A stretch of DNA of 64,000 nucleotides from Altererythrobacter epoxidivorans. Its GTDB lineage: Bacteria; Pseudomonadota; Alphaproteobacteria; Sphingomonadales; Sphingomonadaceae. A program made the position numbers and the translations under genes. Position 1 is the first letter of the stretch. The number at the start of each line of letters is the position of its first letter. The notes below the pieces were generated by a model. The model did no database searches and was not told the DNA's origin. It saw nothing but the letters and a program-made list of their open reading frames with translations. The DNA lies in assembly GCF_001281485.1 (NCBI RefSeq), contig NZ_CP012669.1, positions 372,001 through 436,000 on the forward strand, read 5' to 3'. This document shows, piece by piece, positions 7,834 to 63,130 of the stretch.

Positions 7834-7900
7834 GGGCTATTGAGAAATGAGACCTATTCAAGACCACATATAGGACCGCGTTCTCGATCGATCCTCGCAG

Positions 7901-7960
7901 TTAATCTGCCGGAACCAGCTCCTCTGCCAATGCCCCGAGTTCGCTTGGAGCGGTGCTTTG
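7901..7960 (-). pseudogene. Possible remnant of a gene 3' end (copy 1)
   Basis: On the minus strand this stretch ends in a reading ...STAPSELGALAEELVPAD and a TAA stop. It resembles the tail at 8531-8716 (...HTTLREFRGLVEELVPAG, TAG stop). The upstream part has no recognisable coding continuation. It looks like a decayed fragment rather than a gene. The parent family is not recognised. Confidence 0.35.
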
Positions 7961-8023
7961 CACTTGCGCAGGTCGAGCGTGCTGTGCAGTCTCATGCCCG
8001 TATCTAACAGGGAGAGAACGCAC

Positions 8024-8512
8024 ATGATCCGCCGAGCTTTAGTAGCAGCCGCCGCCATCCCCGTCTTCGCCGCCATGACCGTGTCGGCACAGGCGGGCGA
8101 ACCCAAGCAGACGTTGATGCCGGAGGATGCAGAGGCGCGCGCCTTCCAGGAACAGGTCGGCTATTCCGATGCCGTGATCCACGGCGACACGATCTGGCTG
8201 TCGGGCGTCGTGGCTGTCCCGCAAGAGGGGGACGAGGGGATGAAGCCATCCTTCCACCGCGTGTTCGGGCAGCTCGGGCGCACGCTGGAGCGGCTCGGCG
8301 CGGACTGGGACGACGTGCTGGAGGTGCAGACCTTCCACACCGACATGGCCGCGCAGATCTACGAATTCGCGGACGTGAAGAACGAATACATCAAGGCGCC
8401 ATTCCCGGCATGGACCGCCATCGGGGTGAGTGCGCTTTACGAGCCGGAGGGGCTGGTCGAGGTCAAGCTGATCGTGCGGAAGCCCGAAGGGGAGTCGAAT
8501 AGAGGCAACTAG
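8024..8512 (+). CDS. Exported RidA family protein
   Basis: A 162-residue RidA/YjgF-fold protein with a signal peptide of about 24 residues (cleavage after SAQA). The RidA core follows: YSDAVIHGDTIWLSGVV, the helix with LGADWDDVLEVQTFHTD, and a C-terminal FPAWTAIGVSALYEPEGLVEVKLIV strand pair. RidA proteins form trimers and hydrolyse reactive enamines or imines; the Rid subfamilies differ, and an exported version is more likely to act on periplasmic substrates or be non-enzymatic. The start at 8024 follows GGGAGAG. The gene is bracketed by two similar minus-strand remnants. Confidence 0.88.
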   Translation: MIRRALVAAAAIPVFAAMTVSAQAGEPKQTLMPEDAEARAFQEQVGYSDAVIHGDTIWLSGVVAVPQEGDEGMKPSFHRVFGQLGRTLERLGADWDDVLEVQTFHTDMAAQIYEFADVKNEYIKAPFPAWTAIGVSALYEPEGLVEVKLIVRKPEGESNRGN

Positions 8513-8530
8513 CAATGTTGCCACAGCGAT

Positions 8531-8716
8531 CTAACCCGCCGGAACAAGCTCCTCCACCAGCCCCCTGAATTCCCTCAGCGTGGTGTGGCCAGCGACGATC
8601 TCGCGATAGCCGATGCGACCTCCACCCCATGCGCCGAAGCGAAGCGGATTTGCGTCGATTTCGCGCCGATTTTGCTGGAAATCCGGCTGCCAGAACCCAT
8701 CTCGGTAAGTGAGAAC
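8531..8716 (-). pseudogene. Possible remnant of a gene 3' end (copy 2)
   Basis: A minus-strand open frame reads LTYRDGFWQPDFQQ... through RFGAWGGGRIGYREIV to LREFRGLVEELVPAG and TAG. There is no start codon in this frame before it runs antisense through the hpf gene. The last 18 residues match the remnant at 7901-7960. Probably the 3' part of a lost gene. Family not recognised. Confidence 0.4.
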
Positions 8717-8738
8717 AACAACCGAGAGGAGATCGCAT

Positions 8739-9086
8739 ATGCAGGTCCAGTTCAATTCCGACAGCAGCGTCATGGGCACCGAAAACGTGGCCGACCGTAT
8801 CGAGGCTGCGGTGCGCGACAAGCTATCCCGTTTCGAGGAACGCCTCACCCGGATCGAGATCCATGTGCGCGACGAGAACGGACCCAAGCATGGCGGCGAT
8901 GACAAGGCCTGCACGATCGAGGCACGCCCCCGCGGCGGCCGTGCGATCGGCGTGACGGAACACGCGGCCAAGGTCGACGATGCGGCGCGCAAGGCGGCGA
9001 ACACGCTGGCCCAGCGCCTGACGCGTCATTTCGGCAAGAGCGAACGCCACGGGCACGATCCGCGACCCGACAAGGTCATGTCGTAA
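8739..9086 (+). CDS. Short hibernation-promoting factor / RaiA family protein
   Basis: A 115-residue member of the HPF/RaiA (sigma-54 modulation) family, which binds the decoding centre of idle 30S subunits. It keeps the family beta-alpha-beta-beta-beta-alpha pattern: MQVQFNSDSSV, DRIEAAVRDKLSRFEERLTRIEIHVRDENG, a CTIEARPRGGRAIGV strand and a C-terminal amphipathic helix. It lacks the long C-terminal dimerisation domain and so is a short form. The start at 8739 follows GAGGAGA. A separate long HPF probably exists elsewhere in the genome. Confidence 0.85.
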   Translation: MQVQFNSDSSVMGTENVADRIEAAVRDKLSRFEERLTRIEIHVRDENGPKHGGDDKACTIEARPRGGRAIGVTEHAAKVDDAARKAANTLAQRLTRHFGKSERHGHDPRPDKVMS

Positions 9087-9110
9087 GCGGAAGCCCTAGG
9101 GCAGAATGCC

Positions 9111-9680
9111 TCAGCTGTCCGGCTGCTGCGTCAGCCGGACCAGCCCCCAGTCATAACCGAGTTCCCTGACCCTGCTTTCAAGCAGGGCACGCGTTGCCGC
9201 ATCGGGCTGCGCCTCGCGGGTCAGCATCCACAGATACCGGCCGCTCGGCTCGCCCACGATCGACCAGTCATACAGCCCGTCGGCGCCCGTGGGCCCGTGG
9301 TCCAGTACCCAGTAATCGCCATAGAACGGCCCGAAAAAGCTGACCTTCAGCTTTGCACCCTGGCTATCCTCGACGATCTTCGCCTTGCCGGTGGACTGGC
9401 GAAATTCGCCGTCCAGCGACCCTTGGTAGCATGAATTGACCACCTTGATCCGGTCGTCGTCGCGCAGCGAATATTCCGCCGTCACGCCCTCGCATCCCTT
9501 CTGGAAGGATGCTTCGTAGCGGCCGTATTCGTACCATTTGCCGAGGTAGGCAGGCAGTTCGACCGGCTTGGCCGGTTGCGGCACGCTGGCATTGCCGACG
9601 GGACCGGGCGTGCCGACACATGCGGCAAGGCCGAGGGTGAGGGGGAGGGCGATTGCGGCGATCAGGAGCTTGCGTTTCAT
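9111..9680 (-). CDS. blc: Outer-membrane lipocalin (Blc type)
   Basis: A 189-residue bacterial lipocalin. The lipobox LAAC gives the lipidated Cys21. The lipocalin signature GKWYEYGRYEASFQKGC and the conserved YLWMLTR strand near the C-terminus fit Blc, which binds lysophospholipids or fatty acids at the outer membrane. The start at 9680 opens directly into the signal peptide; longer in-frame starts up to 9773 would bury it. It ends 24 bases from hpf, convergent. Confidence 0.9.
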   Translation of the reverse strand: MKRKLLIAAIALPLTLGLAACVGTPGPVGNASVPQPAKPVELPAYLGKWYEYGRYEASFQKGCEGVTAEYSLRDDDRIKVVNSCYQGSLDGEFRQSTGKAKIVEDSQGAKLKVSFFGPFYGDYWVLDHGPTGADGLYDWSIVGEPSGRYLWMLTREAQPDAATRALLESRVRELGYDWGLVRLTQQPDS

Positions 9681-9985
9681 GCCATCGACAACTCGTGTGG
9701 GCGGCGACGGGTTCCGGCACCCCATGCGCACTGACCCGCGTGCGAGGAAGGCGGGATTAGGTGAATGACACAAGGCGTGCTAGAAGGTCCGCGATGACGT
9801 CGAAATTTGCGACGGACTTCGGCTTTTGACGACGCCGCTTGCCTTTCTGGCCCCGGCGAAAACCAGACGACGACTTCCTTTCTTCGGACGATGCGCATTC
9901 GCTTTGTCGCCATGGGGCGGCAGTGCACTACCGGCGCACAGGTCGTGCGGCGGATAACGACATGTTCTTTGAAAGGGACACACAT
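9681..9985 (+). other. 305-base intergenic region with probable csp leader
   Basis: Between the divergent lipocalin and cold-shock genes. No gene is supported in it. Cold-shock genes commonly have long structured 5' leaders that control translation with temperature, and the right-hand 150-200 bases probably serve that role. I see no single decisive motif. Confidence 0.4.
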
Positions 9986-10198
9986 ATGGCCAAGACTGGC
10001 ACCGTCAAATTCTTCAACGCCGACAAGGGTTATGGCTTCATCCAGCCCGACGACGGTTCTGCAGACAGCTTCGTCCACATCACTGCGGTCCAGGCTGCCG
10101 GGATGCAGACGCTCGATAAGGAACAGCGCCTCAACTACGAAGTCGAAACCGGCCGCAACGGCAAGGAAAGCGCCGTCAACCTTTCGGCTGCCGACTGA
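9986..10198 (+). CDS. Cold shock protein (CspA family)
   Basis: A 70-residue single cold-shock domain. RNP1 appears as KGYGFIQPDD and RNP2 as DSFVHITAV, within the usual small OB fold that binds single-stranded RNA as a chaperone. The start ATG at 9986 follows GAAAGGGACACAC. A strong terminator follows at 10209. Csp proteins of this type are often abundant at constant temperature too. Confidence 0.95.
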   Translation: MAKTGTVKFFNADKGYGFIQPDDGSADSFVHITAVQAAGMQTLDKEQRLNYEVETGRNGKESAVNLSAAD

Positions 10199-10208
10199 CG
10201 AAATACGG

Positions 10209-10243
10209 CGGGCGTTGCGGTTGGTCGCAGCGCCCGTTTTTCC
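10209..10243 (+). terminator. Rho-independent terminator after the cold shock gene
   Basis: Stem CGGGCG (10209-10214) with CGCCCG (10231-10236), an extended inner pairing (TTGCG/CGCAG), then TTTTTCCTT. The following small gene begins 25 bases later, so some read-through could express it. Confidence 0.8.
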
Positions 10244-10268
10244 TTCAACCCAATTCGCGGAGAATACG

Positions 10269-10484
10269 ATGGCTGCTACTTATGATTTCTACTGCGAACG
10301 CGCGGACCAGGCGGCCAAGGCTGCCGCGAATGCGACGCTGGCCAATGTCCGCGAACGCGAACTGCGCGCCGAAAAGACCTGGCGCGGTCTTGCCGACCAG
10401 GCCCGGGCCGTTGCGGTCCAGCGCGAGAAGGTCGAGCGCGAGAAGGCCGAACAGCGCGAGGCAGAAGCCGAAGCTGCGAGCTAG
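10269..10484 (+). CDS. Small coiled-coil protein of unknown function
   Basis: A 71-residue protein, almost entirely helical and rich in Ala, Arg and Glu (ADQAAKAAANATLANVRERELRAEKTW..., then KVEREKAEQREAEAEA). The pattern predicts one long charged helix or coiled coil. It sits between the cold-shock terminator and its own terminator (10496-10530), so it is a discrete transcription unit or a read-through product of the csp promoter. Sphingomonads often have such a small protein after a csp gene. No function can be assigned. Confidence 0.65.
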   Translation: MAATYDFYCERADQAAKAAANATLANVRERELRAEKTWRGLADQARAVAVQREKVEREKAEQREAEAEAAS

Positions 10485-10495
10485 GCTGGCGCAAG

Positions 10496-10530
10496 ACCGC
10501 CTGCCGGCGCGATAGCCGGGGGCGGTTTCC
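10496..10530 (+). terminator. Rho-independent terminator
   Basis: Stem ACCGCC (10496-10501) with GGCGGT (10521-10526), an inner CCGGC/GCCGG pairing, followed by TTCCTCCCTTTCC. Closes the small coiled-coil gene. Confidence 0.65.
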
Positions 10531-10716
10531 TCCCTTTCCTACATGCGGGTTCGCCCTGTAACCGGCTTGCCGCTACGGCTTGCTGGCGGCAGGCGAGATT
10601 TTCTTGGCACAGGACAGTGTTCCATGTGTTCCATCCAGTAGGATTCGCACCCATCTCGGGCGTCTCTCGTCGGTGGTCGCGTAAGGCTGTCGGCCCTGCC
10701 GTTGAAGGAGACACGC

Positions 10717-11568
10717 ATGCCCCGGACACCAGCTCTTTTCATCGGCCATGGCAGCCCGATGAATACGCTGGAAAGCAATGGCTATACGCAAGGGTGGGCG
10801 GCCTTCGGCGAACACTTGCCGCGACCGAAGGCGATACTGGCGATTTCGGCGCACTGGTATTTCGGTGCTACGGCCGTGACGGCGATGGCGCGCCCGCGCA
10901 CGATCCATGACTTTTACGGCTTCCCGCAGGAACTGTTCGACGTCGAATATCCTGCCCCGGGAGACCCCGACCTCGCCGGAGAGATCCAGGAACTGGTGAA
11001 GCCGCAATGGATGGGCCTCGACCAGGATCAATGGGGTCTCGACCATGGCACCTGGTCGGTGCTGAAGCACATGTATCCCGATGCCGATGTGCCGGTGGTG
11101 CAGCTGTCGCTCAACGCGACGCAGCCTGCACAATATCACTTCGACCTGGGACGTGCACTCGCGCCCTTGCGAGAGAAAGGCGTCATGGTCCTCGGCAGCG
11201 GCAATGTCGTCCACAATCTGCGCCGCGTGCAATGGGACAAGCCGGACGATGGCACCGACTGGGGCCGCCGGTTCGACGATGCCGTCGCGCAGCAGCTGGC
11301 CAGTGCGCCGGGCGATATCCTGAAGGTAACCGAACATCCCGATTATGCGATGGCGGTGCCCACTCCCGACCATTTCCTGCCGCTGCTTTACATGGCCGGA
11401 ATCGCGGCGGAGGAGGGCAGCGGGATAGAACAGTTGCTGCAGGGCCATTCGCTCGGCTCTATCAGCATGACCAGCTATGGCATCGGTGCCCATGTCGAGC
11501 TGGCAAAGGACCCGCATTGCGCGGCCCAATTGCCCCGCGGTGTGCCGCCCGAACAAAGCAACATCTGA
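10717..11568 (+). CDS. DODA-type extradiol aromatic ring-opening dioxygenase (YgiD-like)
   Basis: A 283-residue class III extradiol dioxygenase fold of the 4,5-DOPA dioxygenase / YgiD group. Metal-site histidines are visible in FIGHGSPMN near the N-terminus and SAHWYFG; the DHGTWSVLKHMYP and GSGNVVHNLR blocks are family-typical. Bacterial members ring-open catechols, but the natural substrate of most YgiD homologues is unknown. The start at 10717 follows AAGGAGA. The DUF4442 protein follows in the same direction after 62 bases. Confidence 0.9.
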   Translation: MPRTPALFIGHGSPMNTLESNGYTQGWAAFGEHLPRPKAILAISAHWYFGATAVTAMARPRTIHDFYGFPQELFDVEYPAPGDPDLAGEIQELVKPQWMGLDQDQWGLDHGTWSVLKHMYPDADVPVVQLSLNATQPAQYHFDLGRALAPLREKGVMVLGSGNVVHNLRRVQWDKPDDGTDWGRRFDDAVAQQLASAPGDILKVTEHPDYAMAVPTPDHFLPLLYMAGIAAEEGSGIEQLLQGHSLGSISMTSYGIGAHVELAKDPHCAAQLPRGVPPEQSNI

Positions 11569-11630
11569 TCGCGCCTTTCCTTGCCGCGCATGTTGGCGCA
11601 CTATCTCGCCCAGGAGAGAGGAGCGACCGC

Positions 11631-12077
11631 ATGACCGCACAGGAAAAACCCGCCTACAAGGTGCCATTCGTCGACCGGACCGGAATGCGCCGGATCGAGG
11701 AACGGCGCGGCTATTCGAAGCTGCTGATGCCGCTCGAACCCAATGCTAACCACGTCGATGTCATGTATCTCGGTGCGTTTTGCGTGCTGGCGGAAGCGGT
11801 TGCGGCCGGACCTGGCATCTCGGTGCTCGACACCTCGCGCTTTTTTCCGATCATCAAGGATATCGCGGTCGATTTCCATCGCATGGCCGCCAGCGACGTC
11901 ACCGCCGAATTCGGCCTGTCGGAGGCAGAGATCGCAGGCTTGCTGGCAGACCTTGAGCGCAAGGGCAGCGCAACCTACTTCGCCGAAGTGCCGATGCACG
12001 ATGCCGACGGTACACTCGCCGCCACAGGCAAGGTCACGGTCAAGCTGCTGAGCCACAACTGGTCTCCGCCCGGCTGA
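11631..12077 (+). CDS. DUF4442 / PaaI-like hot-dog fold thioesterase
   Basis: A 148-residue hot-dog fold protein. The region MLPLEPN-like (LLMPLEPNANHVDVMYLGAF) and the VPMHDADGTLAATGKVTVKL strands match the DUF4442 family related to acyl-CoA thioesterases. The start ATG at 11631 follows AGGAGAGAGGAG. It probably hydrolyses an acyl-CoA, but catalytic residues vary in this family, so the activity is inferred. Confidence 0.75.
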   Translation: MTAQEKPAYKVPFVDRTGMRRIEERRGYSKLLMPLEPNANHVDVMYLGAFCVLAEAVAAGPGISVLDTSRFFPIIKDIAVDFHRMAASDVTAEFGLSEAEIAGLLADLERKGSATYFAEVPMHDADGTLAATGKVTVKLLSHNWSPPG

Positions 12078-19352: not shown

Positions 19353-21743
19353 ATGAAATTTGTCGTAGGCCAGTTGGCGTGCCGTAATTTTTTTGTCGGA
19401 GCCGCAGTGTGCGGTCTGCTCACCGCTTGTGGCGGCGGCGGGGGTGGTACGAACAGCACTCCGCGTCCTATTTCGACGCCGACGCCTTCGCCAAGTCCAA
19501 CTCCGGTCCCGACACCGACCCCATCGCCAACGCCGACACCTACGCCCACGCCGACACCTACGCCGACACCCACGACCGGCAATTATGTGCAGCCTCAGCT
19601 TCCCACCGACACGATCGGCTACAACACTCCCGAATTTCGCCGATCCGATGGCCCGGCCTTTCACGGTGCGCCAAGCGCGTGGGTCGCGGGTGCGACGGGA
19701 TCAGGTCAGGTCATCGCCGTGATCGACAGCGGGATCGACCAGGCCAATGCGGAATTTGCAGGCCGGATTTCCCCCTTGTCGACGGGCATCAACGGCAACA
19801 CGACCTTCCAGGAAGAGGACAACCACGGGACGCTCGTTTCGCTGGTTGCTGCAGCGGACAACAACAATTCCGGCAATGTCGGCATTGCCTATGACGCGAC
19901 GATCCTGGCCATTCGCTCCGACGATCCTGGCACCTGCGCTGCGGACGACTGTAACTTCGGGGATGTCTCTGACGGCATTCGTTATGCGGTCGACCATGGT
20001 GCGGTCGTGATCAACATGTCGCTTGGCGGCTCGGCCCCATCTTCAAATGAAATCGACGCGATCCGTTACGCTGCAGCCAACGATGTCGTGGTCGTTATTT
20101 CTTCGGGTAACGACGGGGATAGATTTCCGGACCCGTTCGCTTCAGGCAGCTTTGCCACTTCGGGGACGAATGTGATCATCGTTGGATCGGTGAATGAGAA
20201 TGGTGTCGCGTCGGACTTCAGCAATGGCGCGACCGGATACCGCTCGCACTACATCGCCGCACTTGGCGAGGACGTCTACGTCGTTTTCGATGGATCGGGA
20301 TGGTTGATCTCGGGAACGAGCTTTTCCGCTCCCCAGGTTTCTGGCGCTGTCGCGCTGATAGCGCAGGCCTTTCCGAACTTGACGGCGCCAGAGATCATCG
20401 AGCTGCTGATGACGACCGCGCAGGACGTGGGTGAGGCTGGACCGGACGACGTTTACGGCCAGGGCATCATGAACATCCGCGAGGCATTCCAGCCTCAAGG
20501 TCGCACGACACTCGCAGGCAGCCAGACTGCAGTCGCTACTATTGACGACGTTGCAATCGGTTCGACGGCGATGGGCGACGCTCTTGTCGCGCAGGGTCTC
20601 AAGACCCTCATCACCGACAGGTTTGACCGGGCCTTCGGCTACGACATCGGCAGCCGCATGCAGGGCGCCCAGATCGCGCCCCGCCTGCAGGATGCAGTGA
20701 GCCGCGAAGTGCAGTTTTCTGCCGTCGAAACGGCGGCCTATTCGGTTTCCTTCACCACGGGCAAGGGGCCAAGGGCGGGCGGTCTCGAATGGACCGATGC
20801 GCTGCGCCTGACCAAGGATGATGCAGACCGGGCCAAGTTCCTGGCGGCGAGCGTTGCGGCACGTGTGTCACCTGACCTCCAGCTCGGCGTGGGCATTGCC
20901 CAGGGGGCAAGCGGGCTGGTCGCGCAATTGCAGGGAAGTGGCAGGACGAACCTCAAGCCGGCATTCCTGGTGGCCCCGTCCGCAACAGGCGAAGAGGGGC
21001 GTTTCAGCAGCAGCGACATGTCGCTGGCCTTGCGGCACAAGACAGGTCCGTGGGGCCTGACCCTCCATGCCGAGAAGGGTGACCAGTGGCTGGGCGATTA
21101 TCGCTTTGCCGGCGAGGTTGCTTTCGGTGTGCGCGAACACCGCCCGAGCCGGAGCATCGGCCTTGCGGTGGACCGTGAATTCGGGCCGCTGCAGGCATCG
21201 CTCGGAATGACGTGGAAGAACGAGGACGGCACCGTACTCGGCGGTTATTTTGGTGATTTCCTTGGCGTCACCGGTGCCGATAGCGCGTTCATCGACTTCG
21301 ACATTCGCCGCGATCTCGGATCGGGGTGGAGGGCCGGTGCTGCGTTGCGCGGGGGCATGACCTCACCGCGAGCCGGCTCGATCATCGGCGGCGGATCGAC
21401 CCTATGGAGCAATGCCTGGTCGATCGATCTTGCGCGGCAGGGAATGTTCAGCGCGAACGACAGCCTCGGCCTGCGGGTCAGCCAGTCCCTGCGGATCGAG
21501 GATGGCGGTTTCAACCTCGTCCTTCCGGTCGCTTATGACTACGCGACCGAAAGCCCGATCTACGGCACGCAGCACCTCAACCTCGCGCCCGACGGCCGCG
21601 AGATCATGGGTGAGCTCGCCTGGCGCGGCACGTTGATGTCAGGGAATGCCGCAGCGAGCCTGTTCTATCGCAAGGACCCGGGGCACTACGCATCGGAACC
21701 GGACGATGCCGGTGTCGTGCTGCGCTGGGACAGGAAGTTCTAG
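19353..21743 (+). CDS. Subtilisin-like (S8) autotransporter protease with lipobox
   Basis: A 796-residue S8 serine protease. The N-terminus has a lipobox (LLTAC, Cys26) followed by a glycine run and a Pro/Thr linker of about 35 residues. Catalytic residues are visible: Asp125 in [10 protein letters not shown], His158 in DNHGTLV and Ser323 in [12 protein letters not shown]. The passenger domain ends near residue 400; the C-terminal 270 residues contain alternating amphipathic strands ending WDRKF, an autotransporter beta-barrel with terminal Phe. It should be delivered to or across the outer membrane. A lipidated N-terminus on an autotransporter is uncommon and would tether the passenger. Confidence 0.9.
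19480..19578 (+). repeat. Low-complexity Pro-Thr repeat
   Basis: Imperfect tandem copies of a hexamer family (ACGCCG, ACACCT, ACGCCC) encode a PTPTPT linker of the autotransporter. Such repeats vary in length between strains by slippage. Confidence 0.8.
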
Positions 21744-21758: not shown

Positions 21759-21784
21759 GGGATGCCCGATCAGTCGGGCATCCC
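21759..21784. terminator. Perfect hairpin between convergent genes
   Basis: GGGATGCCCGA (21759-21769) pairs perfectly with TCGGGCATCCC (21774-21784), an 11-bp stem with a TCAG loop. It covers the stop codon of the minus-strand kinase gene. There is no T-run on either side, so it is a transcript-end hairpin or a weak bidirectional terminator. Confidence 0.4.
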
Positions 21785-22852
21785 TGCAGCTTTCGCGAAG
21801 TCGTAAGCACGCTCGATCAGCGGGGTCACCCGCTCGCTCATCGATTTGGCATGTGCCGACGATGCCGTGCCGTCGATCACGCGTTTCTTGATGCCTTGCA
21901 TGATCCCGGCCAGCCGGAACAGGTTATAGGCAAAATACCAGTCCATCGGCGGAACCGGATAGCCGGTGCGAGCGACGTAGCGTTCGACGGCTTCTTCCTG
22001 TGTCGGGATGCCCAGCGCTTCCAGATCGAGGTCGAGCAGGCCTGCACGGCCGTCTGACGGGTTGTGCCAGTTCAGCATGAGATAGCTGAAATCGGCGATC
22101 GGATCGCCCAGCGTCGACAGTTCCCAGTCGAGCACGGCGATCACGCGGTTCTCGGTCTTGTGGAAGATCATGTTGTCGAGGCGGTAATCGCCGTGAACGA
22201 CCGAGCTTTCGTACTGCGGCGGAATGGTTTGCGGCAGCCATTCGATCAGCCGCTCCATCTTCGGCTGGTGTTCGGTTTCGGACAGCTTGTACTGCTTGGT
22301 CCACCGGCTGATCTGGCGCGCACAATAATCATTTGGCTTGCCGAAATCCCCGAGCCCGATTTCGTCGGGCTTTTTCAGGTGGAGATCCGCCATCGTATCG
22401 ATCATGGCGTTGTAGATCTCGCGCCGGTCCTCGGGCGAGGAATCGGGCAGGCCGCCGTTCCAGAGGCTGCGCCCGTCCGCCATGCTCATGACGAAGAACT
22501 TCGCCCCGATCACATCGGGATCTTCGCACAGGCCGAACGTCTGCGGCACGGGGAAACCGGTCGGATAAAGGCCGGTCATCGCCTTGTATTCGCGGTCGAC
22601 GGCGTGCGCGCTCGGGAGGAGCTTCCCGAACGGCTGGCGCCGAAGAACGTAGGACGCCCCAGGGGTGTCGATGCGATAGGTCGGGTTCGACTGGCCGCCC
22701 TTGAACTTGGAATAGCTCAGGGGGCCAGCGAAGCCTTCCACATTGGCCTCGAACCAGTCGGTCAGCCTGTCGAGGTCGAGCCGGTCATTCTCGGGCACCT
22801 CGATGGTGCCGACCATCTCCTTGTCGAAATCGATCTGCGGACCTTCGCTCAT
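21770..22852 (-). CDS. ACAD10/11-type phosphotransferase (APH-fold acyl-CoA kinase)
   Basis: A 360-residue APH-fold kinase strongly resembling the N-terminal kinase domain of human ACAD10/ACAD11. Visible motifs: GGQSNPTYRID, VLRRQPFGKLLPSAHAVDREY, the catalytic loop VVHGDYRLDNMIFH and the metal-binding IAVLDWELSTLGDP. In ACAD10/11 and in Pseudomonas LvaA the kinase phosphorylates the hydroxyl of 4-hydroxyacyl-CoAs. It is the last gene of an operon with a zinc alcohol dehydrogenase (one-base overlap) and an ACAD11-like dehydrogenase. The enzyme is often misannotated as an antibiotic phosphotransferase. Confidence 0.88.
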   Translation of the reverse strand: MSEGPQIDFDKEMVGTIEVPENDRLDLDRLTDWFEANVEGFAGPLSYSKFKGGQSNPTYRIDTPGASYVLRRQPFGKLLPSAHAVDREYKAMTGLYPTGFPVPQTFGLCEDPDVIGAKFFVMSMADGRSLWNGGLPDSSPEDRREIYNAMIDTMADLHLKKPDEIGLGDFGKPNDYCARQISRWTKQYKLSETEHQPKMERLIEWLPQTIPPQYESSVVHGDYRLDNMIFHKTENRVIAVLDWELSTLGDPIADFSYLMLNWHNPSDGRAGLLDLDLEALGIPTQEEAVERYVARTGYPVPPMDWYFAYNLFRLAGIMQGIKKRVIDGTASSAHAKSMSERVTPLIERAYDFAKAAGMPD

Positions 22853-23940
22853 CAGTCGAACACCACCACGCTACGGGCCGAATGGCCATCGCGCATCTTG
22901 TCGAAGCCCGAGTTGATCTCGTCAAGCGGGATGCGCTCGGCGATGATCGTGTCGAGGTCCAGCAGGCCGCGCATATAGAAATCGACGAGGCGCGGCAGGT
23001 CGACCGGGAAATGGTTCATGCCCATGATCGCGCCCTGCAGCTTCTTGCCCGAAAGCAGGTCCATGGCACCGAGGCCGACCTTGCAGTCGAGCGGCATCAT
23101 GCCGAGGATGATGGCAGTGCCGCCGCGGCGGAGCGAAGCGACTGCGAGGTCTGCGGAGGCCTGGCGGCCAACCGCTTCTATGCCGTAATGGACGCCGCCT
23201 TCGGAGATCGCGATGATCTGCTTTGCCGCGTCTGGCGCCATGGCATCGACGGTATGGGTCGCGCCCAGAACCTTGGCCAGTTCACGCTTTTCTGGGATCG
23301 GGTCGACCGCGATCACCTTGCCCGCGCCGGCAATGCGCGCGGCATTGATCGCAGCGAGGCCGACGCCGCCGCAGCCGATCACGGCAACGGCTTCGCCCGG
23401 TACGACCTTGGCGGCGTTGAAAATCGTCCCTGCACCGGTCGTTACGGCACAGCCGATGATGGCTGCACGATCGAGCGGCATGTCCTTGTCGATTGCGACG
23501 CAGGCATTTTCGTGGATCAGCATCTGCTCCGAAAATGCCGACAGGTTAAGCATCTGGTTGACCGGAGCGCTGCCGTCGGCGCGCATGATGCGCGCAGGCG
23601 CATCGGGACCGCGGCGGGTATCGGCGCCCATGCACAGCGCCATGCGCCCGGTGACGCAGAACTCGCAATGGCCGCAAAATGCCGACAGGCAGGAGACCAC
23701 ATGGTCGCCCGGCTTCACGGTCTTAACTTCGCTGCCGACCGCGCGCACCACACCTGCGGCCTCGTGGCCGGGAATGGCGGGCAGGGCGTGCGGATAGGCA
23801 CCGTCGATGAAGTGCAGGTCCGAATGGCAAAGGCCGCACGCCTTCGTGTCGATCAGAACCTCGTGGGGGCCGGGATCGGCGAGTGTTACCTCGCCGATCG
23901 TCAGTTTCCCTACTTCTTCAAGAATTGCTGCCTTGGCCAT
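22852..23940 (-). CDS. Zinc-dependent alcohol dehydrogenase (medium-chain family)
   Basis: A 362-residue MDR alcohol dehydrogenase. Catalytic zinc ligands appear in ACGLCHSDLH and GHEAAG; the structural zinc lobe is CGHCEFCVTGRMALC. The NAD-binding loop is VIGCGGVGLAAINAARIAGA. It oxidises an alcohol to aldehyde or ketone with NAD(P). One-base overlaps on both sides place it in an operon between an ACAD11-like dehydrogenase and an APH-fold kinase, so a hydroxy acid or alcohol derivative of that pathway is the likely substrate. Confidence 0.92.
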   Translation of the reverse strand: MAKAAILEEVGKLTIGEVTLADPGPHEVLIDTKACGLCHSDLHFIDGAYPHALPAIPGHEAAGVVRAVGSEVKTVKPGDHVVSCLSAFCGHCEFCVTGRMALCMGADTRRGPDAPARIMRADGSAPVNQMLNLSAFSEQMLIHENACVAIDKDMPLDRAAIIGCAVTTGAGTIFNAAKVVPGEAVAVIGCGGVGLAAINAARIAGAGKVIAVDPIPEKRELAKVLGATHTVDAMAPDAAKQIIAISEGGVHYGIEAVGRQASADLAVASLRRGGTAIILGMMPLDCKVGLGAMDLLSGKKLQGAIMGMNHFPVDLPRLVDFYMRGLLDLDTIIAERIPLDEINSGFDKMRDGHSARSVVVFD

Positions 23941-25274
23941 CAGCGTGCAACTCCCATGTCGCCCGACGACAGGTTGTCATTGCCCATGGTCGGTGCCTTG
24001 CCATCACGCAGTGCATTGGCCGTCGGACCTGCCTGCGGCATGTGCTTGGCGAACTCCATGCGAGCGATCGAACGTGCGTGCACTTCGTCCGGACCATCGG
24101 CAAGGCGGAGCGTACGCTGGTGGGCGTAGGCGCTGGCAAGGCCGTAGTCTTCAGACACGCCGCCGCCGCCATGGGCCTGGATGGCATCGTCGATGATGCG
24201 CAGCGCCATGTTCGGTGCCTGCACCTTGATCATGGCGATTTCCTGCTTGGCGTTCTTGTTGCCGACCTTGTCCATCATGTCTGCCGCCTTGAGGCAGAGC
24301 AGGCGGGTCATGTCGATGTCGATACGGGCACGTGCAACACGCTCTTCCCAGACCGAATGCTTGTAGATCGGCTTGCCGAAGGCTTCACGCTCCTGCAGGC
24401 GCTTGCACATCTTCTCCAGCGCTTCTTCCGCAACGCCGATGGTGCGCATGCAGTGGTGGATACGGCCCGGCCCGAGGCGGCCCTGCGCGATCTCGAAACC
24501 GCGGCCTTCGCCCAGCAACATGTTCGTCACGGGAACGCGAACGTTCTTCAGTTCGACTTCCATGTGGCCGTGCGGCGCATCATCGTAACCGAACACCGGC
24601 AGGTGGCGGATCACGTTTACGCCCGGCGCATCATTGGGGACGAGGATCATCGATTGCGCGGCGTGGCGGCCGGCGCTGAAATCGCTCTTGCCCATGACGA
24701 TCGAGACCTTGCAGCGCGGATCGCCGAGGCCCGAGGACCACCACTTGCGACCGTTGATGACATATTCGTCGCCGTCGCGCTCGATATGGGTTTCGATGTT
24801 CGTCGCGTCGGACGAGGCAGTATAGGGCTCGGTCATGAGGAAGGCCGAACGGATTTCGCCGTTCATGATCGGCGTCAGCCACTCTTCCTTCTGTTCGCGC
24901 GTGCCGTAACGATGGAACACTTCCATGTTGCCGGTGTCGGGAGCCGAGCAGTTGAAGACTTCCGATGCGAAGCCAATGCGGCCCATTTCCTCTGCGCACA
25001 GCGCGTATTCGAGGTTGGTCAGGCCAGGGCCTTCGAATTCGTAGGTTTCATCGACGTGATGATGGCCGTCGTTGCGCGGCGGCATGAACAGGTTCCAGAT
25101 GCCTTCGGCCTTGGCCTTGGCCTTCAGTTCCTCAACGACAGGGATAACTTTCCAGCGATCGCCCTCGGCATCCTGCTGCTTGTAGGTCGGAACGGCGGGG
25201 CGAACGTGCGCTTCGATGAAGTTCTTTACGCGGTCCCGCCAATAGGCCTGGCGTTCTGTGGGTTCGAAATCCAT
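23940..25274 (-). CDS. ACAD11-like acyl-CoA dehydrogenase
   Basis: A 444-residue acyl-CoA dehydrogenase. The C-terminal half matches the ACAD10/11 subgroup: [48 protein letters not shown] and [21 protein letters not shown]. In ACAD11 the dehydrogenase domain acts with the APH kinase domain to eliminate phosphate from 4-phosphoacyl-CoA. Here the two domains are separate genes in one operon. It is first in the leftward operon, with CAGGAGAAAG as Shine-Dalgarno sequence. Confidence 0.9.
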
Positions 25275-25360: not shown

Positions 25361-26797
25361 TCAAGGTACGAGATTGTGTGCGTCCGGGTCTGCCCGTGCT
25401 GCGGCATTGATCGCGGCGACGCGCTGTTCGTGTTCCTCACGACCGATCGGGAACCGTCCGAGCCAGTAGGCAGAGACGATCGCGAGGATCACCGCTGCGA
25501 TTGCGTAGAGCACGATCATCGTCTGGATGACATCCTGCGGCACCGATCCCGGTGCTGAATCGCGTGCAAGCTGCGATGCAGAAATGATCTGGCCCGAAAT
25601 GAAGATGCCGAGCCCGGTCGCGCATTTCTGCACCAGCCAGTTGCCCGAATAGAATGCGCCTTCCGACCTGCGGCCTGTGCTTTCGTAGTGCTTCTCGACG
25701 ATTTCGGCGATCATCGACGATGCGCTGATCATCACCACGATACCCAGCGTATTGGCGACGAGATGGAAGCCGAAATAGATGGTGGTCGACTCCAGCGAGC
25801 CGGGCTGCGGCCACATGCCGACCAGCAGCAGCGTGTAAGGGACCATGAAGAGGGCGACGCTGCCGATCGCGCCGATGGCGGCGCTCTTCGGCTTGCCGAA
25901 CCGGCGATGCATCGGGCTGACGATGAAGAACATCAGGACGACCGAGACGAACAGCATCCAGGGATAGGCGGAGAGCGCGGCCTGGTCGAGCTGCCAGACG
26001 AATACGTTGAGGTAGTTCGTCATGGAGAACGTCATGCCCTGGCTGACATAGGCAGCAAGTCCGCCCACAGCGAAGATCAGGAATGCCCTCTCGCTGAACG
26101 CTTCCCTGATCTCGGAGAAGGCTGACTTCATGCTGAAGGGTTCGGGCTTGTGCTCGGGCAGTTTGGCCACATAGCTGTGCTGCCCGATGGCCGAGCCGAT
26201 GACCGACACGACCATCAGCACGGCACCGAAGATGCCGAAGGTCACATAGCCATCGGCTTTCAGCAGGCCTTCCGCACCCGGCATGAAAACCGAATAGGCG
26301 AGGATCATCATCAGCAGGCCGCCGGACCAGCCCGACAGATAGCGATAACGGAACAGCGTGGTGCGCTCGTCATAGTCGGAGGTAAGCTCGGGGACGAGCG
26401 ACACCGACGGAACTTCGCAGGCCGACAGGAGGATGCGGACAGTGATGGCGATTGCAAGCAAGCCGAGGAAGGTGGGCTGTTCGCCTCCGGGCGGTGACCA
26501 CAATGCGATCCACGCAAATGCCAGCGGGATCGGCGCCGCATAGAGCCACGGCAGGCGGCGGCCCCAGCGGGTATAAGTCCGGTCGGTCAGATTGCCGATG
26601 ATCGGATCGATTACGCCATCGACCAGCAGGGCGATCAGCAGCGCAATGCTGACCATGCCTGCATCCATGCCCAGGACCTGGTTGTAATAGAGCAGCAGGA
26701 AGAAGCTGAAGCCGTTATCCTTGACCCCGAAAGCTACAGCTCCGAAACCGTGCGCCAGTTTCAGGCGCAGAGGCAGAGGTCCGGCATTTGCGCTCAT
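25361..26797 (-). CDS. GPH-family (MelB-like) MFS transporter
   Basis: A 478-residue twelve-helix transporter of the glycoside-pentoside-hexuronide type: GVKDNGFSFFLLLYYNQVLG in helix 1, DGVIDPIIGNLTDRTYTRWGRRLPWL in the helix 2-3 loop, and the VPSVSLVPELTSDYDERT segment. Sphingomonads carry many such transporters beside lipid or aromatic catabolic genes, where the substrate is unknown. The start at 26797 is preferred because a longer frame to 26902 adds an unconserved stretch through the regulatory palindromes. Divergent from the acyl-CoA dehydrogenase pair. Confidence 0.85.
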   Translation of the reverse strand: MSANAGPLPLRLKLAHGFGAVAFGVKDNGFSFFLLLYYNQVLGMDAGMVSIALLIALLVDGVIDPIIGNLTDRTYTRWGRRLPWLYAAPIPLAFAWIALWSPPGGEQPTFLGLLAIAITVRILLSACEVPSVSLVPELTSDYDERTTLFRYRYLSGWSGGLLMMILAYSVFMPGAEGLLKADGYVTFGIFGAVLMVVSVIGSAIGQHSYVAKLPEHKPEPFSMKSAFSEIREAFSERAFLIFAVGGLAAYVSQGMTFSMTNYLNVFVWQLDQAALSAYPWMLFVSVVLMFFIVSPMHRRFGKPKSAAIGAIGSVALFMVPYTLLLVGMWPQPGSLESTTIYFGFHLVANTLGIVVMISASSMIAEIVEKHYESTGRRSEGAFYSGNWLVQKCATGLGIFISGQIISASQLARDSAPGSVPQDVIQTMIVLYAIAAVILAIVSAYWLGRFPIGREEHEQRVAAINAAARADPDAHNLVP

Positions 26798-26859
26798 CCG
26801 GCGCAAACCGATTTTTCGAATCGCACTGCGAATCTGGTCATGAAGCCTCTCCCTGGCAC

Positions 26860-26874
26860 TTGACGTAAGCGTAA
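26860..26874. promoter_or_regulatory. LiuR-like palindrome 1
   Basis: TTGACGTAAGCGTAA, a 15-bp near-palindrome matching the pattern bound by MerR-family LiuR-type regulators of branched-chain and fatty acid catabolism. It is 63 bases upstream of the MFS start and pairs with the site at 26967. Confidence 0.5.
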
Positions 26875-26966
26875 GCGAACCAGCGCTGAGGTCAACGCGC
26901 ATGAGTCTGACGCTACGGAATGGCTGTCAGGAAGAGTTGCGCTTGCGACAAGGGGGCGAATCACCC

Positions 26967-26981
26967 TAACGTAAGCGTCAA
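26967..26981. promoter_or_regulatory. LiuR-like palindrome 2
   Basis: TAACGTAAGCGTCAA, the same element in reverse orientation, 27 bases before the rightward acyl-CoA dehydrogenase start. Two copies about 107 bp apart between divergent operons suggest co-regulation of both arms by one repressor. The regulator gene is not in this window. Confidence 0.5.
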
Positions 26982-27007: not shown

Positions 27008-28189
27008 ATGTCCGATCTGGAGGCCTTCCGCCAGGAAACACGCGAATGGCTCGAAGCCAATTGCCCACCCGAAATGCGCGAACCCGTCCGTGACGATGGC
27101 GACGTTTACTGGGGTGGCCGCAAAGCTACCTTCAAGAGCGATGCACAAAAGGCATGGTTCGAGGCGTGCCGCGACAAGGGTTACACCGTTCCTGCGTGGC
27201 CCAAGGAATATGGCGGTGCAGGCCTTACTCCTCCGCAGGCCAAGGTGCTGCGTGAAGAGATGGCGCGGATCAATGCGCGTCCGCCGCTTTCGAGCTTCGG
27301 CATCTGGATGCTTGGCCCGGCACTGCTGCATTTCGGAACCGAGGAACAGAAGCTGCGCTTCCTCAACGAAATCGCCCGCGGCGAAATCCGCTGGTGCCAG
27401 GGCTATTCGGAGCCGGGTTCGGGTTCGGACCTCGTCAGCTTGCAGACCTATGGCGAAGACAAGGGCGATCACTGGATCGTGAACGGCCAGAAAATCTGGA
27501 CCAGCTATGCCGACAAGGCCGACTGGATCTTCTGCCTCGTCCGGACGGACAAGGAGAACAAGTACCAGGGCATCACCTTCATGCTCTATGACATGGAAAC
27601 GGCTGGCGTCTCGACCAAGCCGATCCTGCTCATCAGCGGCAACAGCCCGTTCTGCGAAACCTTCTTCGACGATGTGAAGGTGCCCAAGAGCTATGGCGAG
27701 GGGATCCCCGCCTATGTCGGCGAAATCAATCGCGGCTGGGACGTTGCGAAGTACCTGCTTGGCCACGAGCGCGAGATGATCTCGGGTGCAGACAGCAGCG
27801 AACGCGGTGCTGGTATCGGCGCTGCGCTGACCCGCCAGCTCGGCACGCTCGACCCAATCCTCCGCGCCGAAATCGCGCAGTTCGATGTCGACACGCTGGC
27901 GTTTGCCGCGATGGGCGAGAAGTTTCTCGATGAAATCAAGATCGGCAAGGCGCACCCCGCGCAGCCGAACATGATGAAATACGCCGGGACCGAGCTCAAC
28001 AAGCGTCGTCACGAACTGATGATGTCGGCTGGCGGTTCGCAGAGCCTCGAATGGGACAGCGATGAAACCAGCGGCGGCAAGCCTGCGCGCAACTGGCTCC
28101 GTACCAAGGCCAATTCGATCGAGGGCGGCACCAGCGAGGTGATGCTCAACGTTATTTCCAAGCGCATTCTTGACCTGCCGGGAGCCTGA
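27008..28189 (+). CDS. Acyl-CoA dehydrogenase (subunit 1 of an adjacent pair)
   Basis: A 393-residue acyl-CoA dehydrogenase. FAD-binding middle segments are visible (RWCQGYSEPGSGSDLVSLQT, GQKIWTSYADKADW) and the C-terminal EGGTSEVMLN block is intact. It is 3 bases from a second, 379-residue dehydrogenase. Side-by-side pairs of this kind form alpha2beta2 heterotetramers in actinobacterial steroid side-chain degradation; this architecture is an inference here. Shine-Dalgarno GAGAGGAGAG is strong. Two LiuR-like palindromes precede it. Confidence 0.92.
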   Translation: MSDLEAFRQETREWLEANCPPEMREPVRDDGDVYWGGRKATFKSDAQKAWFEACRDKGYTVPAWPKEYGGAGLTPPQAKVLREEMARINARPPLSSFGIWMLGPALLHFGTEEQKLRFLNEIARGEIRWCQGYSEPGSGSDLVSLQTYGEDKGDHWIVNGQKIWTSYADKADWIFCLVRTDKENKYQGITFMLYDMETAGVSTKPILLISGNSPFCETFFDDVKVPKSYGEGIPAYVGEINRGWDVAKYLLGHEREMISGADSSERGAGIGAALTRQLGTLDPILRAEIAQFDVDTLAFAAMGEKFLDEIKIGKAHPAQPNMMKYAGTELNKRRHELMMSAGGSQSLEWDSDETSGGKPARNWLRTKANSIEGGTSEVMLNVISKRILDLPGA

Positions 28190-28192
28190 CCG

Positions 28193-29332
28193 ATGCCACT
28201 TTATCACGACGAAGATCAGGCCATGCTGGCGGAAACCGCCAATCAGTTCATGGGCGAAGAAGGTGCAATTTCGAAACAGCTTCGCCACTGGCGCGACCGC
28301 GATTGCAAGGATGGTTTCGGCCATGAATTGTGGAAGCAGTTTGCCGAAATGGGCTTTACCGGCATCATGGTCGACGAAGCCGACGGCGGTATGGGCATGG
28401 GCAATGTCGAAGCCGGCATCGTCATGGAAGAGATCGGCCGTAACCTTACGCCGTCGCCTTTCCTGACCAGCTCGGTCCTGGCGGCAACTGCGCTCAAGCA
28501 CGCCAGCGACGACTTGCGCGGCCGTTACCTGCCGGGTTTGCTTTCGGGTGACAGCGTCTTCGCTGTCGCAATCGACGAAGGCGTGAAGCACCGCCCCGAA
28601 ACCGTATCGACGAAAGCGGAGCGGTCCGGAAACGGCTTCAAGCTTTCGGGCAAGAAGGATTTCGTGATCCAGGGCGCGAGCGCCGACATGCTCGTTGTTG
28701 CCGCTCGCACCTCGGGCAGCGATGGCGACAATGACGGTATCACGCTGTTCGCAGTGCCGAAGGATGCATCGGGCATGAGTCACGATGCGGTCCGCCTCGT
28801 CGACAGCTCGATGGCGACCCACACGACCTTTGACGGTGTCGAGCTCGACGGCGATGCCGTGATCGGCGAAGTCGACGGTGGCCGCGAAGTGCTGAATGCC
28901 ATGCTGATGGCTGGCCGCGTCGGCGCCGCTGCAGAAGGTGTCGGCGTTGCCCGCGGTGCGATGGACATGACCATCGATTACATCAAGCAGCGCAAGCAGT
29001 TCGGTCGCCTGATCGGCGAATTCCAGGCTCTGCAGCACCGTGCCGCTCACCTCTATTCCGAAGTCGAAATCGCGCGTGCAGTTGTCATCAAGGCGCAGCA
29101 GTTGCTCGATGCCGGCAGCGAACGTTCGGACCTCATGGCTTCGGTTGCCAAGGCGAAGGTTTCGAAGACTGCGGGCCTCGCTGTTCGTGAGGGCGTGCAG
29201 ATGCATGGCGGCATCGGCATGACCGATGAATACGACATCGGCCTCTATATGAAACGCGACCGTGCGCTGCAGGAATTCCTCGGCGACCAGTATTACCATG
29301 CGAACCGCGTGGCCGAACTGAGCGGTTATTGA
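28193..29332 (+). CDS. Acyl-CoA dehydrogenase (subunit 2 of an adjacent pair)
   Basis: A 379-residue acyl-CoA dehydrogenase. The RKQFGRLIGEFQALQHRAAHLYSE helix and the MHGGIGMTDEYDIGLYMKR block near the C-terminus are typical. Its FAD-contact sequence in the middle (ATHTTFDGVELDGDAVIG) is less canonical than in subunit 1, as is common for the partner subunit in heteromeric acyl-CoA dehydrogenases. It begins 3 bases after subunit 1 and is followed by an SDR after 13 bases. Confidence 0.9.
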   Translation: MPLYHDEDQAMLAETANQFMGEEGAISKQLRHWRDRDCKDGFGHELWKQFAEMGFTGIMVDEADGGMGMGNVEAGIVMEEIGRNLTPSPFLTSSVLAATALKHASDDLRGRYLPGLLSGDSVFAVAIDEGVKHRPETVSTKAERSGNGFKLSGKKDFVIQGASADMLVVAARTSGSDGDNDGITLFAVPKDASGMSHDAVRLVDSSMATHTTFDGVELDGDAVIGEVDGGREVLNAMLMAGRVGAAAEGVGVARGAMDMTIDYIKQRKQFGRLIGEFQALQHRAAHLYSEVEIARAVVIKAQQLLDAGSERSDLMASVAKAKVSKTAGLAVREGVQMHGGIGMTDEYDIGLYMKRDRALQEFLGDQYYHANRVAELSGY

Positions 29333-29345
29333 GGGAGATCGGACA

Positions 29346-30155
29346 ATGATGAATTTGAAGGATCTCTTCGGCCTCCAGGGCCGTGTCGCCCTGGTGACCG
29401 GCGGTTCTCGCGGTATCGGCAAGATGATCGTCGAAGGCCTGCTCGAAGCTGGCTGCGAGCGCGTGTACATCAGTGCGCGCAAGGTGCACGAGATCGAGGA
29501 AACCTGCGCGGAGCTGGGCGAGAAGGTCATCGGCATTCCGGCCGATCTCAGCCAGATGGATGGCATCCAGAGGCTGGCTGACGAACTTGCCAGGCGCGAA
29601 GACAAGCTCGATCTCCTCGTCAACAATGCCGGGGCTGCATGGGGCGAGCCGTTCGACGAGTTCACCGAAGCGGGCTGGGACCGCACGATGGACCTGAACG
29701 TCAAGACGCCGTTCTTCCTGACGCAGAAGTTGCATGGCCTGCTCAAGGCAGCCGGTACGCCGGAACGCCCTGCGAAGGTGCTGATGATCGCATCGATCGA
29801 CGGGATGAAGTCGAACCCGTGGCCGACCTATCCCTATCAGGCGTCGAAGGCGGGTCTCATCCACATGACCCGTCGCATCGCCGCTGAACTGATCGGCGAC
29901 AACATCGTCGTGAACGGCATTGGCCCGGGTGCCTTCCCGAGCGCGATGAACCGGGCGGCGCGCGATAATCCGGACGCATCTGCCAAGGGTATTCCGTCGA
30001 AGCGCGTCGGCGTGACGGAAGACATGGCAGCAGGCGCGATCTACCTGCTCAGCCGGGCAGGGGACTATGTCGTCGGCACCACGATCCCGATCGATGGCGG
30101 CGTGGTCAACGCCAATATCGGCGCGGGCAATTTCGTCGATCCGTCGGGCGGCTGA
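29346..30155 (+). CDS. Short-chain dehydrogenase/reductase
   Basis: A 269-residue classical SDR. Cofactor motif TGGSRGIG, NNAG (VNNAGAAWG) and the catalytic YPYQASK are intact, so it should be an active NAD(P)-dependent oxidoreductase. It is the last gene of the rightward operon with the acyl-CoA dehydrogenase pair and probably acts on the hydroxyacyl intermediate or a carbonyl product. Two adjacent ATGs (29346 and 29349) are possible starts. A strong terminator follows. Confidence 0.92.
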   Translation: MMNLKDLFGLQGRVALVTGGSRGIGKMIVEGLLEAGCERVYISARKVHEIEETCAELGEKVIGIPADLSQMDGIQRLADELARREDKLDLLVNNAGAAWGEPFDEFTEAGWDRTMDLNVKTPFFLTQKLHGLLKAAGTPERPAKVLMIASIDGMKSNPWPTYPYQASKAGLIHMTRRIAAELIGDNIVVNGIGPGAFPSAMNRAARDNPDASAKGIPSKRVGVTEDMAAGAIYLLSRAGDYVVGTTIPIDGGVVNANIGAGNFVDPSGG

Positions 30156-62963: not shown

Positions 62964-63130
62964 GACTAACTCTCCCGGTAACTGGCATACTCAATATTCA
63001 AATGAAGAAAAGCGGATTCTTTCAATCTCGTGGCAAGCCTGGCGGAAAACCGCTTCACGCGCGTCGGTTCTACGCGGCAGGTTGTTCGAGCCGGTGCGCT
63101 TAACGCAAGGGTCAAACCGCTTTTTCGAAA

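Follow-up and report, generated by a model that had tools for sequence, protein, structure and literature searches.

Altererythrobacter epoxidivorans carries, close together on one strand, an APH-fold kinase gene and an acyl-CoA dehydrogenase (ACAD) gene that resemble the two parts of the ACAD10 and ACAD11 proteins, with a zinc-dependent alcohol dehydrogenase (ADH) gene between them. This locus raises the questions of what kind of substrate the pair handles, and what the ADH does between its members. We analysed the 64,000-nucleotide stretch of contig NZ_CP012669.1 from position 372,001 to 436,000 (the window). In the best reading, the island is catabolic, is directed at acyl chains bearing a 4-hydroxy (or 4-oxo) group and is built on a split ACAD10/11 (Lva-type) module. 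By analogy with published homologues, it is very probable that at its core a 4-hydroxyacyl-CoA is phosphorylated, the phosphate is eliminated and the resulting enoyl-CoA is β-oxidised.

The dehydrogenase matched three ACAD11 chains in the PDB with 460–463 bits and 4hr3 with 439 bits, compared to 141 bits for the next entry, an ordinary ACAD; over 382 aligned residues its identity to mouse ACAD11 is 58.1%. Active-site residues were compared with those singled out in PMC12440821, whose residue numbers equal the chain position in the printed alignment plus one (here and below, PMC12440821, PMC11342911 and PMC6692424 are cited for the portions of their text that were available). Arg266, His274, Arg277 and Asp393 correspond in the alignment to R626, H634, R637 and D753 of mouse ACAD11. 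The HCMR motif, the upstream Arg and the catalytic Asp of the ACAD10/11 type are all present, as are the motifs that the original prediction had cited. Among 118 sequences each for the dehydrogenase and the kinase (the window plus loci L094–L133 and L171–L250; identity at least 57% and at least 69%), at least 99% have the active-site residues of the protein concerned. In a tree, 22 ACAD11-like rows, human and mouse ACAD11 included, were split with support of 98/94 from 10 other ACADs, namely 8 of the 14 other ACAD matches in this genome together with ACADb and ACADc of a neighbouring gene set. Long branches were flagged among these 10, and the nearest outsider, L042, has an HHAMR variant, as does 4hr3. 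Assignment of the dehydrogenase to the ACAD10/11 type is supported by score, residues and tree.

The best PDB match of the kinase was 3dxp (383 bits), followed by mouse ACAD11 (228–232 bits) and 9o56 (191 bits), after which the scores fell to 47 bits. Its identity to the kinase part of mouse ACAD11 is 37.9% over 340 aligned residues, and its Asp222, Asn227 and Arg179 align with D220, N225 and R176 of ACAD11. R86 of PMC12440821 falls off the plus-one numbering; an Arg beside a conserved Glu (R87–E88) is kept in the kinase. The HGD, DN, DRE and RQ blocks are kept in at least 99% of the 118 kinase sequences, window included. Score and residues support a kinase of the ACAD10/11 type, as had been predicted for both proteins.

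A kinase that modifies an antibiotic or a sugar, next to coincidental neighbours, would account for the Pfam APH call and for a weak match to an APH(3′) model (33 bits against a cut-off of 205). We regard this as highly improbable in view of the ACAD11-level similarity and of the linkage to the dehydrogenase in the family (below). In the kinase tree, moreover, the present kinase (K1), two further ACAD11-type kinases of this genome (K2 and K3), 3dxp, ACAD11 and 9o56 stood apart from three further own-genome APH proteins, which lay outside on very long branches. Pfam places one more APH protein of this genome above its cut-off, near genome position 289732, but it gave no suitable frame for the tree. 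The original prediction had also remarked that such a kinase would usually be annotated as an antibiotic phosphotransferase. The name 'aminoglycoside phosphotransferase' is indeed carried by 9o56 and by PP_2791 (PMC6692424), but the annotated records examined call the kinase a 'phosphotransferase family protein'.

The three genes were found where they had been predicted, on the minus strand and with one-base stop/start overlaps (TGATG) at both the dehydrogenase/ADH and the ADH/kinase junctions; a ribosome-binding-like AGGAGA lies upstream of the dehydrogenase start. Read 5′ to 3′, the minus-strand order is MFS_2 transporter, dehydrogenase, ADH and kinase, with the MFS_2 gene one step upstream of the dehydrogenase on the same strand after a gap of 86 bases. 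A set made of ACADb, ACADc (separated by 3 bases) and a short-chain dehydrogenase/reductase (SDR), spanning 27008–30155, diverges from the MFS_2 arm across a common intergenic space (Table 1). Spacing and strand suggest that both arms are operons. A chance neighbourhood of kinase, ADH and dehydrogenase was ruled out by the dehydrogenase–ADH–kinase order, which is conserved in 61 of 149 same-family genomes.

Table 1. Features of the island and its intergenic space (window coordinates; MDR, medium-chain dehydrogenase/reductase; aa, amino acids)
Feature	Position	Strand	Details
APH-fold kinase, ACAD10/11 N-domain type	21770..22852	-	360 aa; Pfam APH 1.1e-50
Zinc-dependent MDR alcohol dehydrogenase (ADH), perhaps NAD-preferring	22852..23940	-	362 aa; Pfam ADH_N + ADH_zinc_N
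ACAD11-type acyl-CoA dehydrogenase	23940..25274	-	444 aa; Pfam Acyl-CoA_dh_N/M/1
MFS_2/GPH-family transporter	25361..26902	-	Pfam MFS_2 1.7e-111
Second, weaker operator-like site	26861..26875	-	3 mismatches to TTGACGCTTACGTTA
Operator-like site TTGACGCTTACGTTA, pattern TTNACGYWWACGTNA	26967..26981	-	between divergent arms; 15 bases
ACADb, acyl-CoA dehydrogenase of divergent set	27008..28189	+	Pfam ACAD domains
ACADc, second acyl-CoA dehydrogenase of divergent set	28193..29332	+	Pfam ACAD domains
SDR oxidoreductase after ACADc	29346..30155	+	Pfam adh_short_C2/adh_short

The kinase was present in 118 and the dehydrogenase in 111 of the 149 same-family genomes, and all 111 also hold the kinase (cut-offs of E ≤1e-75 for kinase and ADH, and E ≤1e-110 for the dehydrogenase). 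Within the genus, a kinase match of 76–88% identity was seen in 35 of the 36 other genomes (one partial). The present genome has three ACAD11-type dehydrogenases (at 395943, 144866 [68%] and 2042656 [56%]) and three ACAD11-type kinases (at 393773, 433061 [54%] and 2044693 [31%]). The kinase–dehydrogenase pair is not unusual in bacteria, and it is of an already known kind, split pairs having been published (LvaA/LvaC and a functional bacterial pair). The split state of the two genes is, as predicted, that published for Lva.

The active-site residues are shared with human and mouse ACAD10/ACAD11, in which a kinase part and an ACAD part make up one polypeptide, whereas here there are two genes with the ADH gene between. 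An HAD domain is described for ACAD10; Pfam found none in the kinase, only APH and a marginal EcKL match. In the Pseudomonas putida levulinate operon the kinase and ACAD are likewise separate genes, LvaA and LvaC. LvaA is 29% identical to ACAD10/11 kinases (PMC11342911), compared to 38% between the present kinase and ACAD11. The oxidoreductase of that pathway, LvaD, reduces levulinyl-CoA with NADH or NADPH (PMC6692424). In contrast to that operon, the oxidoreductase between kinase and ACAD here is a zinc MDR and not an SDR, and no small LvaB-sized gene lies between them, the only place where one was looked for. The Lva operon groups kinase and ACAD with a 4-oxoacyl-CoA reductase and a CoA ligase; here kinase and ACAD are clustered, the SDR of the divergent set is at most a candidate for the reductase, and Pfam shows no CoA ligase in the seven genes. 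Split Burkholderia orthologues, compared from their published description only, are alike in that the separate kinase and ACAD each replaced an ACAD10 domain in vitro, on 4-hydroxyhexanoyl-CoA (PMC11342911). A Novosphingobium capsulatum plasmid has the order dehydrogenase–kinase–SDR–SDR–3-hydroxyacyl-CoA dehydrogenase–fatty acid CoA ligase–ACAD–ACAD. It resembles the island in its dehydrogenase (71% identical) and in the pair itself, after which come genes of the FadB-like, CoA ligase and ACAD kinds. It differs in that the zinc ADH is absent from the stretch read and in that its kinase is nearer K2 (62%), with an SDR after it that shares 67% identity with the SDR linked to K2. No description of the present cluster turned up in our literature search.

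In the homologues, the 4-hydroxyl group is phosphorylated and FAD-dependent elimination of the phosphate then gives a 2-enoyl-CoA (PMC12440821, PMC11342911). By the same route, a substrate that enters via the MFS_2 transporter and is carried as its CoA ester would here be phosphorylated on the 4-hydroxyl by the kinase. The ACAD11-type dehydrogenase, with its HCMR/Arg pocket and redox-cycling FAD, would eliminate the phosphate, and the 2-enoyl-CoA would be consumed by β-oxidation. Chain shortening, ahead of these steps or following them, may fall to the divergent ACAD pair together with the electron transfer flavoprotein (ETF).

The ADH was found in 77 of the 149 same-family genomes with 80 matches, 61 of which have both an upstream dehydrogenase gene and a downstream kinase gene on the same strand within 800 bp. 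Of the 19 other matches, four lie at contig ends (G078, G193 and two halves of one G175 gene), two have the kinase only (G118, G184), five the dehydrogenase only (same strand in G070, G133 and G200; divergent in G096 and G116) and eight neither. Among matches of at least 51% identity, 72 of 73 adjoin the kinase and/or the dehydrogenase, the exception being in G173. We also examined 80 named loci, the best 80 of 554 confirmed stretches in a contig scan; Erythrobacter litoralis, Qipengyuania flava and Citromicrobium bathyomarinum are among the triad-bearing relatives in this set. The triad order, judged here without a distance limit, was present in 76 of them, and the four exceptions (L171, L177, L201, L250) are cut by contig ends. 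A set of 40 family loci of up to 19 kb each, all chosen for holding the ADH, is used below as well; the two sets are not independent, five loci occurring in both.

Across the class, an ADH match at 1e-100 was seen in 33 of 385 genomes, 30 of them outside the family. At 27 outside-family ADH loci (51–59% identity), none had a kinase or ACAD11-type gene within ∼1.5 kb, contig ends permitting. The ADH as a universal partner of the module was rejected on this absence, and because of it the linkage looks specific to the same family or order. Among four plasmid ADH contexts, an ACAD11-type gene adjoins only in Croceicoccus marinus, a member of the same taxonomic order, where it is divergent and no kinase lies in the stretch; no ACAD11-type gene was seen beside the ADH in Acidisoma or in two unannotated Cupriavidus plasmid records. 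The ADH as a plain substitute for an SDR beside the kinase was weakened by several distant triad operons, which carry a zinc ADH and an SDR together.

The original prediction had placed the ADH on the same chain as the pair. The strong gene linkage within the family favours this indirectly, and the role itself is one that we infer. Both domains (ADH_N and ADH_zinc_N) exceeded the Pfam cut-off, as expected of the zinc MDR type. Across 121 sequences, of which the window's is one, C38, H59, C164, C89, C92, C95, C103 and Asp213 each persist in at least 99%. By analogy with the ADH family, the first seven are the putative catalytic and structural zinc ligands and Asp213 would be the Asp of NAD-type enzymes. 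The ADH may turn 4-hydroxy into 4-oxo forms and back, a task like that of LvaD but on an unrelated fold, and we hold this assignment only tentatively. Alternatively, the ADH may be part of a route that inverts the enantiomer poorly taken by the kinase.

The ADH could instead act earlier and not on the 4-hydroxyl itself, oxidising a primary alcohol, aldehyde hydrate or lactol (a 1,4-diol or 4-hydroxyalkanal precursor, for example) towards the acid before CoA ligation. The putative zinc ligands are intact, S-(hydroxymethyl)glutathione dehydrogenase and alcohol dehydrogenases of the liver type are among the nearest solved relatives by sequence, and related Sphingopyxis and Novosphingobium plasmid clusters have P450 and aldehyde dehydrogenase genes nearby. 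However, neither an aldehyde dehydrogenase nor a P450 was recognised among the gene families present in at least 4 of 41 stretches, as judged from sequence starts only and not by a scan one by one, and we consider an earlier-acting ADH somewhat unlikely.

We then turn to the genes around the triad. An MFS_2 match heads the set in 34 of the 40 family loci and 75 of the 80 named loci; the PDB matches of the transporter are weak, at 52 bits for lysophosphatidylcholine symporters and 49 bits for melibiose permease. A pair that mainly clears lipid-peroxidation products (4-hydroxyalkenals via 4-hydroxy acids), and does not support growth on an external substrate, has been speculated upon for mammals in the Discussion of PMC12440821. 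The prevalence of the transporter speaks against such a role here, which we think unlikely. ACADb and ACADc were each matched in 37 of the 40 family loci (in L129 only at 36% and 34%), and an SDR match of at least 54% was likewise found in 37. L121, L122 and L126 are without the ACAD pair and L127, L129 and L130 without the SDR; the pair lies outside its usual divergent place in L108, L127 and L130.

The best PDB matches of ACADb are 4x28 (131 bits) and Tcur3483 (125 bits), which we take to be heteromeric steroid side-chain ACADs. ACADc is nearest PimD in NCBIfam (246 bits, under the cut-off of 653), and the SDR matched 2b4q best (201 bits). The ACADb relatives would suit an island for the breakdown of a cyclic compound, such as a terpenoid or a steroid, that is ring-opened to an acyl-CoA with a 4-hydroxyl and whose chain is handled mainly by the divergent ACAD pair. 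With matches this modest and no ring-cleaving enzyme among the seven genes by Pfam (the rest of the genome was not searched), a cyclic substrate appears quite unlikely. Several more distant members extend the operon past the kinase with SDR genes (f17 in 9 loci; f7 in 20 loci, though not always at this place), a gene resembling thiolase (f18, 9 loci) and one for a FadB-like protein of 677 aa (f14, 12 loci), the latter two named from matches to annotated genes of Croceicoccus and Novosphingobium plasmids. These extended operons are a β-oxidation setting. The gene-family comparison of the 41 stretches used a simple gene caller, which missed, for example, the ADH in L098, L100 and L103. A subtilase-domain protein with a long Pro/Thr repeat (19353–21743, plus strand) is convergent with the kinase and has a match in 16 of the 40 family loci.

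The intergenic space contains an operator-like site. At three or fewer mismatches, TTGACGCTTACGTTA has 3 matches in the window against 0.49 expected, and none of 100 shuffles reached 3; the third match (63101–63115) is inside a called gene. In the 2,786,256-base genome, the pattern TTNACGYWWACGTNA occurs at three places (four matches, one place on both strands), compared to none for the reversed-pattern control. These are the space between the arms described here, a site before a MerR–FadE operon and a site before etfB–etfA, the latter two at 1501–1515 of L292 and of L293. The MerR-family gene starts ∼20 bases after its site (G000:C1:1064109) and is followed by an ACAD, called FadE-type from a below-cut-off NCBIfam match. 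A pattern common to ETF and FadE fits an acyl-CoA-oxidising pathway. The three places are likely to form an acyl-CoA regulon, and the MerR protein would be the one that binds the site. The TTNACG/CGTNAA repeats presumably resemble LiuR-type MerR sites; a literature search on LiuR found no source for the motif.

Across 61 genomes, 219 matches to TTNACGYWWACGTNA were counted against 55 for the reversed control. At 33 loci of pattern matches we found a MerR–FadE pair in 14, FadE alone in 1, EtfB in 5 (two of which are one place), the present cluster in 6 and none of these in 7. Among the matches listed, 13 of 14 genomes of the genus, its own included, have the site 4.1–5.1 kb upstream of the kinase, and G019 is without it. 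The 80 named loci hold 61 pattern matches in 1,544,685 bases, and the exact pattern lies between ACADb and MFS_2 in 55 of the 75 that have both arms.

If the longest MFS_2 frame, which begins at 26902, were used, the coding region would include an operator-like site, and 4 of 7 relatives' proteins have their called starts near 26797; for these reasons the MFS_2 start may be the ATG at 26797. A short frame, MTRFAVRFEKSVCAG (26841–26794, minus strand), ends with a stop that overlaps this possible start (ATGA). Some relatives (e.g. L094–L097) have an SDR gene (f7) between ACADb and MFS_2, and since it occupies that spot, the short frame may be a remnant or a leader.

Several observations weigh against the picture drawn so far. 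The ADH is generic by sequence (its best NCBIfam model scored 317 bits against a cut-off of 440), and its sequence names no 4-hydroxy substrate. It is not obligatory for the pair, because 12 listed family kinase–dehydrogenase pairs have no ADH within 800 bp. Pfam found no CoA ligase among the seven genes. The reversed control was as high as or higher than TTNACGYWWACGTNA in 7 of the 61 genomes, and the exact pattern is absent between the arms in 20 of the 75 named loci. The kinase tree has inner joins around ACAD11, 3dxp and the K3/9o56 rows that are weak or unite long branches; mouse ACAD11 itself sits on a long branch, and with K2-type kinases included the triad kinases are not a single separate clade. 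A comparison of trees had been proposed as a check of the pair; as noted above, the dehydrogenase groups with ACAD11, and the kinase stands apart from other APH proteins but with these weak inner joins and long branches. Both trees were built without LvaA/LvaC rows, and the kinase rows include 22 of 40 non-triad kinase loci, a set taken from 84 listed kinases beside no ADH.

Beyond the original prediction, which had not mentioned the MFS_2 gene or the divergent set, the window holds a second ACAD11-type kinase, K2 (62089–61052, minus strand; 345 aa), 54% identical to the first. It belongs to a run of genes on the minus strand (62891–59063) for a TesB-like thioesterase, K2, two SDRs and a glyoxalase-fold protein. 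Among solved structures, the first of these SDRs matches DHRS4 proteins best (179 and 178 bits, against 149 for the one after them), and its best NCBIfam model, 'glucose 1-dehydrogenase', is the sole one shown above cut-off. A gene of this type (63–89% identical) is directly downstream of the kinase at 13 of the 40 non-triad kinase loci. DHRS4 is peroxisomal, like ACAD11. A common function of a DHRS4-like SDR and an ACAD11-type kinase is only a suggestion.

The ACAD10 kinase prefers the R form about fourfold (PMC11342911). If the zinc ADH were a dedicated 4-hydroxyacyl(-CoA) dehydrogenase acting with an SDR reductase, the two would invert the 4-hydroxyl and so let both enantiomers reach a stereoselective kinase. 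The inversion partner of the ADH would be the DHRS4-like SDR after the second kind of kinase, or the SDR of the divergent set. We consider this doubtful; redox epimerisation was not found described for 4-hydroxy-acid catabolism in our literature search.

Two further modules were noted. Locus L061 (G000:C1:2034000-2052000) contains at 7579–11656 the third kinase and the third ACAD11-type dehydrogenase of this genome. An SDR-like stretch separates the two, and an MDR dehydrogenase of another kind comes after them; this set is possibly Lva-like. On a Deinococcus radiodurans plasmid (L170, 5992–10026), an ACAD11-type dehydrogenase lies near a kinase, and it is the kinase that a histidine phosphatase family gene follows. 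A histidine phosphatase gene is likewise part of the levulinate cluster of P. citronellolis (PMC6692424).

The role of ACAD10/11 in 4-hydroxy-acid catabolism was assigned only in 2024–2025, and the accessory steps are at issue: the origin of the 4-hydroxy acid, the fate of 4-oxo forms and the fate of the less-favoured enantiomer. The ADH-containing, pattern-linked island is a new variation on the known split pair. An island in which the module has kept one particular ADH in many members of a family, mostly along with a transporter and an ACAD pair, points to these accessory steps, in the form of separate enzymes that can be used, and a predicted MerR-linked regulon comes with it. Redox epimerisation, if true, would point to a partnership between mammalian DHRS4 and ACAD11.

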